Assembly: GCA_002746975.1 (NCBI GenBank)
Contig: NVXE01000008.1
Location: forward strand, 33,667 to 97,666
Direction: 5' to 3'
Source: Bacteroidota bacterium
GTDB taxonomy: Bacteria; Bacteroidota; Bacteroidia; Flavobacteriales_D; Sanyastnellaceae
DNA: 64,000 bases
Shown here: positions 14,784-20,527 of the stretch, piece by piece
Position numbering within the stretch: the first letter of the stretch is position 1
Layout: each line of letters starts with the position of its first letter
Position numbers and translations under genes: made by a program
The notes under the pieces: model-generated
Seen by the model: only the letters and a program-made list of their open reading frames with translations
Told to the model about the DNA's origin: nothing
Database searches by the model: none

Positions 14784-15866
14784 CTATACTGTAAGAAGAT
14801 TACATCCACGGACTTCTGCGTGATCGAACCTCCCCAAAACCTCGAAATCACTAGACCCTATCTCGTTCCTAAGGCTACCTAGATCAGACGTTGATAAAAA
14901 GGAACAGCTATCGATATTTGCTAAATCTATAATTTGCAATCTACCTGTCCTACCTCGCTTCACTTCGGTTCCGGGATCTGATACATCACGAACAATAATC
15001 TCCATGGTCGCAGGGGGGGTGAAATATCTACCATCTGTACAATATGCTTGAGATAGCAGCTCAGTCATTCCGTACTCACTAATAATTGTGGCATTAGGTA
15101 TAACTCTTTTAATCCTTGAGTGTACTTCTTCTCTTATCGGTTCACGCCCATGACCTTTCATTCCACCAGTTTCAATAATGGTCAAAGAAGATTTGGCTAA
15201 TTTTTCACTCAGGCTATCCGAAATACCCGCAACCTCTAGCCAGCTTAAGAGAGCGTGAGTTACTCCAATAACAACAACAGGCCTATCGTTAGATAAAGTG
15301 CTCATTAGGTCATCCTGCAATGCCATATAATTATCTAAATAAAACCTATCTGACTGTTCTGAAATATCCATAAATGATTTCGCCATAGCCACTAATGAGG
15401 CATCTCCCCTATCTATATACCCCGGCAATAATGCAAACCAAATGCATTCCTTTACTGGCCTAACTAACCTACTATAAATCTTATTCGAAACCTCATTATA
15501 CCAAGCAACTGATCTTATTCTATGCTCTGATCGTGCTCCTGAATTTGAAGTTCCGGAGCTACGATAGATAACTTCAGGTTCAAATTCTCCTGAAATAACT
15601 TTATGAGATCGAAAAAACTCAACTGGCATAAACGGAATATCTCGATAATTATTCACTTTCATCCAATCGATTCCCATTAAGCTCACAAACTCCCTATATA
15701 CCTCATTATTAGCTACTTGAAAAGCAAATACTTTTAAAGCTACATCCTTAAAACTGACTGACAGCTCATAATTAAGTAGACTTCTAACACTATCCACTAA
15801 AAGTGAATGTTCAGATTTAAACTTAGTTTCAAAAGGTTTATTTGAGTTTTTTTGTGGAACGCTCAT
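14784..15866 (-). CDS. LuxE/PaaK-like acyl-activating (acyl-protein synthetase) enzyme
   Basis: A 360-residue member of the LuxE branch of the adenylate-forming superfamily, which activates a carboxylic acid with ATP and transfers it to a protein or carrier. The phosphate-binding loop IYRSSGTSNSGARSEHR is near residue 105. TIIETGGMKGHGRE and SEYGMTELLSQAYC are the mid and adenine-site motifs, and the small C-terminal lid follows IIDLANIDSCSF. Its substrate is unknown. No LuxC-type acyl-CoA reductase, acyl carrier protein or ketosynthase lies nearby, so the bioluminescence name should not be transferred. It ends 8 bases from tyrS (convergent) and diverges from the lipoprotein gene at 15900. 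Confidence 0.82.
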   Translation of the reverse strand: MSVPQKNSNKPFETKFKSEHSLLVDSVRSLLNYELSVSFKDVALKVFAFQVANNEVYREFVSLMGIDWMKVNNYRDIPFMPVEFFRSHKVISGEFEPEVIYRSSGTSNSGARSEHRIRSVAWYNEVSNKIYSRLVRPVKECIWFALLPGYIDRGDASLVAMAKSFMDISEQSDRFYLDNYMALQDDLMSTLSNDRPVVVIGVTHALLSWLEVAGISDSLSEKLAKSSLTIIETGGMKGHGREPIREEVHSRIKRVIPNATIISEYGMTELLSQAYCTDGRYFTPPATMEIIVRDVSDPGTEVKRGRTGRLQIIDLANIDSCSFLSTSDLGSLRNEIGSSDFEVLGRFDHAEVRGCNLLTV

Positions 15867-15886
15867 GGGCGTAAGTTCGGAAGTGG

Positions 15887-15894
15887 TAGCTTTG
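15887..15894 (+). promoter_or_regulatory. -7 box immediately before the lipoprotein gene
   Basis: TAGCTTTG matches TAnnTTTG exactly and ends five bases before the ATG at 15900. It sits in the 33-base gap between two divergent genes, so the upstream part of this promoter must lie inside the LuxE-like coding sequence. No TTG is visible at 17-23 bases. Confidence 0.5.
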
Positions 15895-15899
15895 AATTA

Positions 15900-16412
15900 A
15901 TGAAAAATTGGAATTTTAGTTCGGAATTATTGTTGATTAGTGCTATTTCTGCCACTTTCCAACTGACTAGCTGCATACCCGCGCCTAATTACCCCATTGA
16001 ACCTAGTATTGAGTTCATTGCCTTTGAAGTCGATGAAAGTAATCACGCAATACTTTCGTTTCAATTCACTGATGGTGATGGAAATTTAGGTTTAGACCAA
16101 ACCGACACGCTTCCTCCCTTCTGCACTTCATGCGAAAACCATTTCAATCTAAAATGTGAGTACGATGAACTCAGAGATGGTGAGTGGGTTCATATCCCAC
16201 TTATTCCTGCTCAAGGCCAGGTGCCGTTTTACTATCGCGTTCCTAGGGTTGAACCCTCGGGCAGTAACCCCGCACTTAATGGCGTCATAGAGATAGCAAT
16301 GAATACATGGAGTCTAAAGTCTAGCTACGATACATTAAGGTTTCGCCTTACTCTTGAAGATAGAGATTTAAATATCTCTAACGAGGATACTACTCGTGTA
16401 ATAATAAAGTGA
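15900..16412 (+). CDS. Small secreted lipoprotein, function unknown
   Basis: I chose the ATG at 15900 because it gives a classical lipoprotein signal peptide (hydrophobic stretch, then QLTSC with lipidated C25). The longer frame would extend into the divergent neighbour. The mature 145 residues contain FQFTDGDGNLG, a calcium-loop-like Asp/Gly segment frequent in Bacteroidota surface lipoproteins, and two further cysteines in FCTSCENH. The C-terminal part looks like a single beta-sandwich. I do not recognise a named family. It stands alone, ending at a shared bidirectional hairpin. Confidence 0.8.
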   Translation: MKNWNFSSELLLISAISATFQLTSCIPAPNYPIEPSIEFIAFEVDESNHAILSFQFTDGDGNLGLDQTDTLPPFCTSCENHFNLKCEYDELRDGEWVHIPLIPAQGQVPFYYRVPRVEPSGSNPALNGVIEIAMNTWSLKSSYDTLRFRLTLEDRDLNISNEDTTRVIIK

Positions 16413-16510: not shown

Positions 16511-19500
16511 TTATTGACAAGCCTGTCCAAATGCAGATAGGAATTGTAACAAGTCAGCTGCAGTCACTGTTCCGTCACCATTAATATCTGCTGGGCAAGT
16601 ACTAGTGCCAACAGTGAAAGTACAAGTGCCGTCATCTACAGTCGCACCATTAGTAAAGTTATCCGCATCTGGGTAAGTACATCCGTAACAACCGTAAGTA
16701 CAAGTTGTGTTATCTGCTAAGTAAGCAGTAGCATTATAGTTACATGCAGTAGCATCATTGCAACCGAAAGCAGATGAGTTTGCAGCACCAGGTGTACCTC
16801 CATCAACCCAAGATGCTTGCCAGTTAGAACCTAAATCATTGCCCATTCCTAGAGTACCTGCGTTGTAAGCAGCTAACACCTCTGGGATATACTCTAATGA
16901 AGAACAACCACCATTAGGGTTACTGATTAGAGTGCTTCCTAGAATACTAAACCCAGCTCCAGGCCATGTTCCAGTAGAAGCATAAGTAACTGCATTTACT
17001 ACGTTACCCCATGCATCTTGAAGAGAAAGAGCCTCTCCGCTGTTTGAGAAGTTTCCTAAATCCATAGTAAACACCTGATATCCATTACCAGCATAGTTAG
17101 GAGTTCCTAACCCACCTGCAACAGTAATAACTACAAACTCTCCAGCTGCTAACACAGTTCCTGCAGGAAATACCATTCCTAATTGAGGAGCACCAGATGC
17201 TGAGTTGTAGAAGTTGTAACCAGAAATATCAGCAGGAAGATCACCTATATTATGTAGCTCACAGAATTCCCAATCGAAATCATTACCCTGTGAAGAACAA
17301 GGGTTAAAGTGAATCTCATTAATAATTATAGACGGCAATGTGTAGTAACACAGTGTATTGTCAGCTAACGTAGTATTAATATTGTAGTTCAGAGCTAATG
17401 GATCAAAACATCCTGTAATCACACAAGAACCATCATCTGCAACAGCAGCAGGATCGTAGTTATCTGCAGCAGGATTTGTACAACCAGCAAGATTAGAACA
17501 AGAACCATCATCTTCAGCAGCTTGTGGATCAAAATTAAGGAAAGTCAGATCCGTACAACCTAGTCTAACAACATCAAGGCTATTCCGTGGGATAAGCTTC
17601 CAAGCTCCGAAAGAATAGAAGTTAGGTCCAGTTACTCTGTAAGTAACTCCAGCAACAACTACAGGCATGTTTACCAAACCAACTAGAGTACTATCAGTGA
17701 TAGCATTATAAGCCATTCCACTTACTTTAACAATTCCAGATCCATCATCTAGCAACCACTCTGTATATCCAGCATTTGGATTAACTACAGGAGCAACTAC
17801 TTGAGTAAGTACGCTTTCCCACTGCTCATCATTAACAGCGAATGTAGAAACCAATTCTGGAGCAGGAAGAACGTTTCCTGAAGAGACAATTGTAGGGACA
17901 GCACCTGCGATTTGGCGTAAGCCGTAAACTTCACTTACAGTTCCTGTTACATCTAACAAATCTCCAACTGCGACACCTGAACCTATACACCAAATAGCTG
18001 AGAATGGACCTGTACCATTCTGAATTACGTAAGAAGGGTTATTTGAAAGTGCTGATGAAGCTGCGAATACAGCTGTTACGGTTCCACCTGTCATAACCTG
18101 ACCACTTACTAGCCCATTATGGATCTCCTGAACAGTTAGGTTAGGAATATAGATACAAGAACCATCATCGGTAGTGGCTGTACTATCATAGTTAGTAGCT
18201 CCTGGATCTGTACACCCACTAGTGCTAACAGCACAACCATTTGTGAAGACATGAGATCCTAAATTAGACCAATCATTAAGTGGGTTAACTATCCACTCCC
18301 CATCGAATTCGTTAGTTCCAGCAGAAGCTGCCCACATTCCTGCGTTACCTGCATTAACATCCGATTTACGTACTAGAGTATGGTTTTGTGTTGCATTTGC
18401 AACTCCTGAAACAATAAATCCAGTCCCAGGATCAGGACCTATACTTCCGATAAGATCAACAAGAACGGTATCTACTCCTACAATCTCTGCAAGACCGTAT
18501 GTATCGTCTCCATTAGATAAATATGTGTAAGTCATATCAGCTACTGCTAAAATCAAAGGATCTGCAGTAGGGTGAGCGATAACGTATGTGCTGTTAGGAG
18601 GAACAATTGCTCCAGCAGGGAATGTTAGAGTCCAGTAATCGAATTGATCTGTAATATATAAAGCTGCAGGAGTATTACATCCATTGCTACAATTAGCCAT
18701 TGTATACTGATCTAAGAAAATAGGAGAACTAGTAGGGTTGAAAAGCTCGATATACTTATTGTTTGCTGAACCCTCAGCAACTTCAGAAACAAACAATGTA
18801 CATGATGTGCCTGTAAAAATACATGAACCATCATTTACAGATGCAGTAGGATCGTAGTTATCAGCCTGAGTAAATGTGCAACCATATAAAAGAACATCAT
18901 TGACATCACGAGGTTGAAGTTTAAAAGCTCCAAATGAGAAATCCATAGCTCCAGTCACTTGTAAACTAGAACCTAAATTAACTAGTCCGGCAGCGATTGC
19001 TCCGAAACCTAAATCGTCAACAACTAATGCACCACTTGCATCATTAATTGACCACTCACCAAAACCAAGTGCTGGGTTTTCAACAGCACCCGAGGTTTGT
19101 ACCAAAACACCCTCCCATTGCTCCGCAGAAGCTGACAAAGTAGTAAGAACTTCAGCAGCAGGCAGTGCGTTTCCCTGACTTAGAATGGTGACTGTAGGAG
19201 TATTAATTTGAGTTAAGCTGAAGTTTTCAGCAACAACTCCAGACACATCTACTGCATCACCAATTTGCAACGCAACATCAGAACCATTAATCCAAATACC
19301 TGAGTATGGACCAACACCATCTTGAATAGTTGCTCTTGCACCATAAACTCCAGTTACTATACCTGATGTCAATACTCCAACACCTTCAAATAAACCTGTT
19401 TCCTGTCCTATTTGAATATCTGTAATAAATGTATAGGGAGAAGCTAAACAAGAACCATCGTCAAAGTCAGCAGCAGCATTATAGTTAGGAGCCACTGGGT

Positions 19501-20527
19501 CCATACAACCACCAATGCCTACTGTAATTGTTCCCACCATGCCTATAGCAGCGTGAGATCCAACTGAACAATCATAAGAATAAACACCTGGAATTGTAAA
19601 CGTATGTGAGCCAATGCAAACACCTCCCGATACTCCTGTAACAGAAGGGAAAGAAAACGCCTCAGGATTCCCAAAAGACAAGCCTGTCTGAGTTTCAATA
19701 TCACCATTAGCATTATGCGTACCACCAGTATTAACGAAGAAAACTAAGTCTCCTACATTAATGTTTAAAGCTGAAGGAGTAAAAGTGAAATTTGTTGCAA
19801 CAACCTCTATTCCGTCTAGGTTACAAGCATTCGGGAATAAACATGTTCCATCATCAGTATTTGCAGTAGGATCATAGTTCGTAGCGTTAGGGTTCATGCA
19901 TCCCGGAATAACTGGTCCACAAGTTCCAGTCATTGTGTGAACTCCTAAGTCTGTCCATGTATCTATTGGCAAAACACTCCATTCTGATGACGCAGCATCT
20001 ATTCCAGCGGAACTAGACCAAATTGGATTTCCTTGAGTGATGTCAGGATTTCTGACAAGAGTGTGGTTTTGTGTAGCATTTACAACTCCAGCAACAGCCC
20101 ATCCCGTTCCAGGATCACCTTGGTAATCACCTATAGCATCAACGAAAACGTGACTAAGTTCTGTCCCGAAAGCAAGCTTATATCCATCGTCTCCATTAGA
20201 CAAGAAATTATGCGTTTGGTTAGCTAAAGCAAGTATAGAGGGATCTGCAGACCCATGAGCGATTATGTAAACGCCTCCAGCAGGAATCGTTGCACCAACT
20301 GAGAACGTATTCCAATATTCGTACTGGCCAACAACTGTTGGAGCATTACTAACACTAGGGAAAGCGTATGTTGTTAAATCTATTGCAGCATTTGTTGGAT
20401 TATAAATCTCTAAATACTTATTGTTTCCGGACCCTTCAGCGTACTCTGAGAAAAACAGATCGCATTGGGCTTGAGTGTTTACAAACGACATAGTCGCTGC
20501 AACAAATAAAAATAAAATACGTTTCAT
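16511..20527 (-). CDS. Large secreted multidomain protein: lamin-tail domains, cupredoxin, Cys repeats, dockerin-like end
   Basis: Start chosen at ATG 20527 (MKRILFLFVAATMSF, cleaved after NTQA), giving 1338 residues; an in-frame ATG at 20557 lacks a signal-like beginning. Domains in order: lamin-tail domain (about 21-200); cupredoxin (about 242-337) with candidate type 1 copper ligands H271, C320, H325 and M330; OB-like domain (365-545); second lamin-tail domain (575-765); second OB-like domain (797-985); third lamin-tail domain (1065-1250). Nine roughly 25-residue repeats of the form GC...NYDP...DDGSC separate them. The C-terminus is a Cys-bracketed calcium loop, DINGDGTVTAAD, like half a dockerin. 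It is probably displayed or shed outside the cell. No specific function can be assigned, and no standard T9SS C-terminal domain is visible. Confidence 0.85.
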   Translation of the reverse strand: MKRILFLFVAATMSFVNTQAQCDLFFSEYAEGSGNNKYLEIYNPTNAAIDLTTYAFPSVSNAPTVVGQYEYWNTFSVGATIPAGGVYIIAHGSADPSILALANQTHNFLSNGDDGYKLAFGTELSHVFVDAIGDYQGDPGTGWAVAGVVNATQNHTLVRNPDITQGNPIWSSSAGIDAASSEWSVLPIDTWTDLGVHTMTGTCGPVIPGCMNPNATNYDPTANTDDGTCLFPNACNLDGIEVVATNFTFTPSALNINVGDLVFFVNTGGTHNANGDIETQTGLSFGNPEAFSFPSVTGVSGGVCIGSHTFTIPGVYSYDCSVGSHAAIGMVGTITVGIGGCMDPVAPNYNAAADFDDGSCLASPYTFITDIQIGQETGLFEGVGVLTSGIVTGVYGARATIQDGVGPYSGIWINGSDVALQIGDAVDVSGVVAENFSLTQINTPTVTILSQGNALPAAEVLTTLSASAEQWEGVLVQTSGAVENPALGFGEWSINDASGALVVDDLGFGAIAAGLVNLGSSLQVTGAMDFSFGAFKLQPRDVNDVLLYGCTFTQADNYDPTASVNDGSCIFTGTSCTLFVSEVAEGSANNKYIELFNPTSSPIFLDQYTMANCSNGCNTPAALYITDQFDYWTLTFPAGAIVPPNSTYVIAHPTADPLILAVADMTYTYLSNGDDTYGLAEIVGVDTVLVDLIGSIGPDPGTGFIVSGVANATQNHTLVRKSDVNAGNAGMWAASAGTNEFDGEWIVNPLNDWSNLGSHVFTNGCAVSTSGCTDPGATNYDSTATTDDGSCIYIPNLTVQEIHNGLVSGQVMTGGTVTAVFAASSALSNNPSYVIQNGTGPFSAIWCIGSGVAVGDLLDVTGTVSEVYGLRQIAGAVPTIVSSGNVLPAPELVSTFAVNDEQWESVLTQVVAPVVNPNAGYTEWLLDDGSGIVKVSGMAYNAITDSTLVGLVNMPVVVAGVTYRVTGPNFYSFGAWKLIPRNSLDVVRLGCTDLTFLNFDPQAAEDDGSCSNLAGCTNPAADNYDPAAVADDGSCVITGCFDPLALNYNINTTLADNTLCYYTLPSIIINEIHFNPCSSQGNDFDWEFCELHNIGDLPADISGYNFYNSASGAPQLGMVFPAGTVLAAGEFVVITVAGGLGTPNYAGNGYQVFTMDLGNFSNSGEALSLQDAWGNVVNAVTYASTGTWPGAGFSILGSTLISNPNGGCSSLEYIPEVLAAYNAGTLGMGNDLGSNWQASWVDGGTPGAANSSAFGCNDATACNYNATAYLADNTTCTYGCYGCTYPDADNFTNGATVDDGTCTFTVGTSTCPADINGDGTVTAADLLQFLSAFGQACQ

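Follow-up and report, generated by a model that had tools for sequence, protein, structure and literature searches.

A gene for a 1338-residue protein with a predicted signal peptide occupies positions 16511..20527 of the minus strand (whole coding sequence including the stop; ATG at 20527, stop at 16511-16513) in the window, that is, the 64,000-nucleotide stretch of contig NVXE01000008.1 analysed here, from a Bacteroidota bacterium of the Sanyastnellaceae (assembly GCA_002746975.1). The protein combines known modules in a new way, and our central result is that one of them, a cupredoxin domain, is predicted to be copper-competent, which is well supported by sequence and by a structural model. 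With the tree rooted as we assumed, this domain is a later and optional insertion into an older core of lamin tail domains (LTDs) and OB folds. For the protein as a whole we consider it an evenly balanced proposition that it works outside the cell as an acidic scaffold, with the copper-competent domain as an accessory for electron transfer or copper handling.

The cupredoxin covers residues 234-338 (19514..19828, on the minus strand, as are all parts of the protein below). Pfam Copper-bind matches residues 244-336 with 34.6 bits (cut-off 21.2) and an E-value of 2.6e-8, and an AlphaFold2 model of residues 204-362, computed from 42 aligned orthologs, has a mean pLDDT of 96.7. The solved structures nearest to this model are plastocyanins (2plt, Z 13.8, root-mean-square deviation 1.4 Å over 87 residues). 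When the ortholog profile is aligned with plastocyanin (E 5.5e-8), the predicted ligands H271 (19715..19717), C320 (19568..19570), H325 (19553..19555) and the axial M330 (19538..19540) occupy the positions of the ligands His, Cys, His and Met in plastocyanin, respectively. The domain therefore has both the fold of a type 1 copper domain of the PF00127 kind and the four ligand residues at equivalent positions, and from fold and alignment together we infer that these residues cluster in space. An earlier note, made from the bare sequence, had named the same four residues with a C-x4-H-x4-M spacing and had called copper binding plausible; the sequence bears out the first statement, and the plastocyanin fold, the ligand alignment and the conservation described below support the second.

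The domain is not a plastocyanin proper, since it scores 24.4 bits against the TIGR02656 equivalog cut-off of 87.85. It shares with the plastocyanin/pseudoazurin family (PF00127) the fold, the four ligand positions and the size of a single domain of about 100 residues; however, its C-x4-H-x4-M loop is longer, with Cys and His two residues further apart than in plastocyanin (C-x2-H), it has an additional conserved cysteine pair, C235/C304, and it sits inside a 1338-residue secreted protein, whereas the members of that family are free electron carriers. Loops of the C-x4-H-x4-M type, or similar ones, are found in rusticyanin, auracyanin and plant phytocyanins.

Ligand conservation was scored on the 113 distinct cupredoxin domain sequences from all fetched loci. 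Free variation of the ligands among relatives, which the earlier note had proposed as a test of its reading, is not what we found: 105 of the 113 domains keep His-Cys-His-Met (HCHM), five read HSQM, one reads HSDM and two have a shorter, plastocyanin-type loop, with the residue equivalent to H271 kept in every domain scored. The two short-loop domains (L237 and L238) carry a C-x2-H loop and were counted as ligand changes through misalignment to the profile, so these changes are most likely alignment artefacts. Among orthologs that hold a cupredoxin, HCHM is found in all except one (L029/L069), which is the source of the HSDM site. The HSQM sites all belong to one group of giant paralogs (L181, L182, L183, L214 and L217, with open frames of about 2400-4470 residues), a dead-site lineage in which the cupredoxin Cys has become Ser and the second His has become Gln. 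In each of the six broken sites the Cys and the second His were lost jointly while the first His and the Met remain, as expected if copper binding is the selected property. The cysteines C235 and C304 are both present or both absent in 110 of the 113 domains, suggesting a structural disulfide; the N-terminal Cys of the three remaining domains is apparently part of a repeat or of a signal peptide.

These data also bear on the possibility that the cupredoxin is a mere structural beta-sandwich spacer, with a recent origin of the fold, or a contribution to stability, accounting for the retained ligands, and copper having no part in it. It can draw on the six distinct domains that keep the fold with a broken site, on three orthologs that dispense with the domain altogether, and on its location between repeats, where any spacer domain would sit. 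Against this, the four ligands are retained in those 105 domains over several families and next to many different partner domains, and the Cys and second His disappear together, as selection for copper binding would predict. We thus regard a copper-free spacer as unlikely, and a copper-competent domain remains the reading that we follow here.

The history of the domain can be read from its orthologs. Full-length orthologs at 54-86% identity occur throughout the family; in public databases they come from metagenome-assembled genomes, most of which are named Flavobacteriales bacterium. About 55-60 loci share the order GT4, RNase HII, the present gene, a gene for a small lipoprotein-like protein, one for a LuxE-like protein, TyrRS, MurF and GldJ, among them those of distant cupredoxin-less orthologs built as LTD-OB-LTD-OB-LTD-tag; the gene has syntenic orthologs across the whole family. 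In a tree built from the C-terminal region (a quick tree with SH-aLRT support only, on which five rows cut by contig ends were not scored as lacking the domain), the distribution of the cupredoxin needs four changes, namely a gain in the ancestor of the larger clade and three losses (L082, L083 and L084); once these three rows are removed, a single change suffices. The root was set on the cupredoxin-less clade, and a gain, rather than a loss in the outgroup, is assumed.

The same cupredoxin subfamily is by no means confined to this gene. It was found in 83 of the 114 genomes of the family, with one to six copies per genome in open reading frames of 188-4472 residues, and also in other families of the order. 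Its partners include fasciclin, FISUMP, PKD and type IX secretion system (T9SS) sorting domains, and elsewhere CBM48, laminin-G and LTD. The cupredoxin-fasciclin proteins of the same family (for example L174, L175 and L176) resemble the present protein in being secreted and multi-domain, with the same subfamily and intact ligands, but they pair the cupredoxin with fasciclin and end in a T9SS sorting domain in place of the dockerin-like tag described below. At least three non-orthologous Bacteroidota proteins (L110, L234 and L238) also combine LTD with cupredoxin, which rules out the idea that this combination is unique. A search of the open-access literature for joint mention of LTD and cupredoxin returned only a general paper on immunoglobulin folds, an absence that is no proof of absence.

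The number of copies raises the question of whether the domain might serve as a copper store or scavenger that buffers copper at the cell surface, without any electron transfer. Up to six secreted cupredoxins per genome, some of them stand-alone with a T9SS sorting domain (such as L188 in the genome studied here), would suit such a role. However, one copper ion per 1300 residues is little for a store, electron transfer is what type 1 geometry is tuned for, and no copper-regulated neighbours were seen at the locus; we therefore give this explanation little credence, less than the spacer. An accessory with a redox or copper-handling role is instead the most likely use of copper, and we would set it about level with all other readings taken together.

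The cupredoxin is surrounded by LTDs, OB modules and cysteine-stapled repeats. Family assignments were made by scanning the protein with Pfam and NCBIfam against their curated cut-offs. From the N-terminus, the architecture consists of a signal peptide, LTD1, one repeat, the cupredoxin, one repeat, two adjacent OB folds, one repeat, LTD2, one repeat, a second OB module, three repeats, LTD3, two repeats and a dockerin-like tag at the C-terminus. The order LTD, cupredoxin, OB, LTD, OB, LTD read by the earlier note was thus correct, but the note had left out nine cysteine-stapled repeats and the tag at residues 1308-1338. The lamin tail domain (PF00932) is matched over three stretches with 128.3 bits (gathering cut-off 34.3, E 2.1e-37): LTD1 at residues 22-205 (19913..20464), which is 48% identical to LTD2; LTD2 at residues 575-765 (18233..18805), for which Foldseek lists lamin A/C and B1; and LTD3 at residues 1063-1252 (16772..17341), whose best Pfam stretch is 1065-1183.

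Of the two OB-like domains of the earlier note, the first is, in the model, two tandem OB folds. Residues 366-770 were modelled from 37 orthologs (m72c0e5a9de32; pLDDT 84.6, pTM 0.55), and both halves of the module (model residues 1-93 and 94-184) resemble OB domains from Asp- and Asn-tRNA synthetases, RPA and Ten1, with Z of about 11-12. The predicted OB fold 1a comprises residues 366-458 (19154..19432; asparaginyl-tRNA synthetase OB domain, Z 11.9 over model residues 1-93), and OB fold 1b comprises residues 459-549 (18881..19153; aspartyl-tRNA synthetase OB domain, Z 12.2, model residues 94-197) with a nearly invariant K536-x-x-P-R540 motif. The second OB module, at residues 793-988 (17564..18151), is assigned by its identity to the first (42% over 186 residues, E 5e-43), and because of this identity it too is probably two OB folds, making four in total.

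Each domain border from LTD1 to the C-terminal tag is marked by GC-x(18-20)-C repeats, nine in all, mostly ending in DDGSC or DDGTC, for which Pfam, NCBIfam and PHROGs hold no family name. Repeat 1 (GC..NAtNYD..A..DDGTC; residues 209-229, 19841..19903) was modelled with high confidence, and repeat 2 (residues 340-360, 19448..19510) was recognized from sequence and model. The others were recognized from their sequence: repeat 3 (residues 549-569, 18821..18883), repeat 4 (residues 771-791, 18155..18217), repeats 5-7 (residues 990-1060, 17348..17560) and repeats 8-9 (residues 1255-1302, 16622..16765). The same separator also occurs in many other proteins of this genome.

The mature protein has 15 Lys and Arg residues against 125 Asp and Glu, a net charge of -110, and every domain is acidic, as are the corresponding domains of the orthologs; the first OB module has 3 basic against 19 acidic residues and is acidic in every ortholog. 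Such acidity argues against simple electrostatic binding of DNA, although Mg2+ and Ca2+ from seawater could bridge an acidic protein to DNA. In the second OB fold the few basic residues that there are (K536 and R540), together with their counterparts around K977, are nearly invariant; they are seen again in an OB protein that stands alone with a T9SS sorting domain, and they provide the best candidate for a ligand site.

The earlier note had suggested an adhesive or DNA-binding surface scaffold, and in one rival reading the protein is an extracellular nucleic-acid-binding relative of the ExeM/Xds-type nucleases that lost, or never had, the nuclease domain, and whose tandem OB modules retain DNA outside the cell, either to capture it or as biofilm matrix. 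In the NCBIfam scan, residues 410-480 resemble the OB portion of the ExeM/NucH nucleases, with scores below the curated cut-offs, and the best Foldseek matches of the OB model are the tandem-OB HIN domains of IFI16 (E 2e-4), including a complex with single-stranded DNA. ExeM likewise pairs an LTD with a region of two putative OB folds; that region is essential for nuclease activity and the LTD is dispensable (PMC6085458). In Xds, too, the OB part is required, and the LTD is neither required nor responsible for localisation (PMC6746945). The conserved K-x-x-P-R of the second OB fold would fit this picture, as would a secreted protein of the same genome (L229:1247-3451) that combines an OB region with PLD-like domains and a T9SS sorting domain. 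However, the likeness to ExeM, Xds and NucH (NF033680, NF033681) ends with the LTD and OB region in a secreted protein (PMC6085458, PMC6746945). The present protein scores 37.9 bits against a cut-off of 300 for NF033681, shows no EEP nuclease domain in the Pfam scan, and has several LTD and OB modules in addition to the cupredoxin and the cysteine-stapled repeats. A nuclease of LTD-OB-EEP type scored above cut-off in none of 30 genomes, and OB folds frequently bind sugars or proteins instead. The extreme acidity and the missing nuclease downgrade a plain DNA-binding scaffold, an idea that rests on the OB folds and the kinship to ExeM. DNA binding by the scaffold is accordingly doubtful to us, and the nuclease-relative reading has, in our estimate, a rather small chance of being right, similar to that of the spacer. 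A scaffold for polymers or for partner proteins is the reading we prefer.

Depletion of basic residues is not peculiar to this protein (16514-20464): L005, L012, L124 and L239 are likewise extremely poor in Lys and Arg. In several of the proteins that share the C-terminal tag these two residues amount to 0.2-1.7%, some of the counts covering only part of the protein.

The ends of the protein bear on its location. Residues 1-21 (MKRILFLFVAATMSFVNTQAQ; 20465..20527) form a Sec-type signal peptide, predicted by eye from the sequence. The last 31 residues, 1308-1338 (CPADINGDGTVTAADLLQFLSAFGQACQ; 16514..16606), form a dockerin-like tag that is present in nearly every ortholog reaching its C-terminus. 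Its final 27 residues score 21.8 bits against the NCBIfam profile NF041540 for GC-type dockerins, below the cut-off of 29, and only over profile positions 36-67 of 67. The tag shares with GC-type dockerin-anchored proteins the C-terminal DxNxDG...DLL..L..FG..C motif with flanking cysteines, but it has one of the two half-EF-hand repeats and a score below cut-off, and the genus lacks a detectable cohesin. Since a cohesin search of 13 genomes from the genus found none (one match each turned up in two genomes of the order), cellulosome-like docking was ruled out. The tag motif was found at about 70 places in the genome, and most of the 30 that were read (L135 and L241-L269) end 0-3 residues before the stop, or about 28 residues when a second copy follows. 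Neither Pfam nor NCBIfam detected a T9SS type A sorting domain (TIGR04183/PF18962) in the protein; elsewhere in the genome 70 places scored above cut-off for it, and by coordinates no overlap was seen between these and the tag hits. This tag may be a second export or anchoring signal and, being common to many secreted proteins of the genome, could prove of wider importance than the copper site.

In the mechanism that we propose, a very acidic multi-domain protein would be exported by the Sec route, its ancestral core being a string of LTD and OB modules with cysteine-stapled repeats between them and the dockerin-like tag at the end. Most likely this core would serve as a scaffold at the surface or in a matrix, binding polymers or partner proteins. 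A cupredoxin with an intact His-Cys-His-Met type 1 site would have been inserted near the N-terminus in one large clade of the family; it most likely holds one copper ion, in a redox or copper-handling role that would be useful to the scaffold without being essential. The signal peptide, the nearby GldJ and the T9SS sorting domains of the genome provide the secretion context. Several observations weigh against this proposal. Three orthologs have no cupredoxin and one has a dead site, which means that copper is not needed for the rest of the protein's role, and a surface location is put in question by the lack of a T9SS sorting domain and by a tag that has no known partner and no cohesin in the genus. 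A bolder version, in which a working type 1 centre is displayed at the surface, held by LTD and OB domains on an acidic extracellular polymer, and the tag serves export and attachment as a second sorting signal beside the T9SS sorting domain, strikes us as improbable.

For large secreted proteins of marine Flavobacteriales, the copper-competent cupredoxin is an optional and mobile component. At one syntenic place there are orthologs that have the module, orthologs that lack it and one whose site is broken; they form a natural comparison set, by which the role of an extracellular copper centre in these bacteria becomes testable.

Phage origin of the gene was ruled out, no PHROGs family being matched at E 0.001. 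The gene is adjoined in about 60 loci by a homolog of LuxE-like acyl-protein synthetases (14784-15866, minus strand; a weak NCBIfam match), and a small protein with a lipoprotein-like start (LTSC; 15852-16412, plus strand), which belongs to no NCBIfam family, is syntenic in about 60 loci. Four orthologs (L072, L073, L069 and L104) come from metagenome-assembled genome records titled Rhodopirellula, Euryarchaeota and Chryseobacterium gleum; because of their gene order and their place in the tree, these contigs belong to the present Flavobacteriales group, and the record names look wrong.

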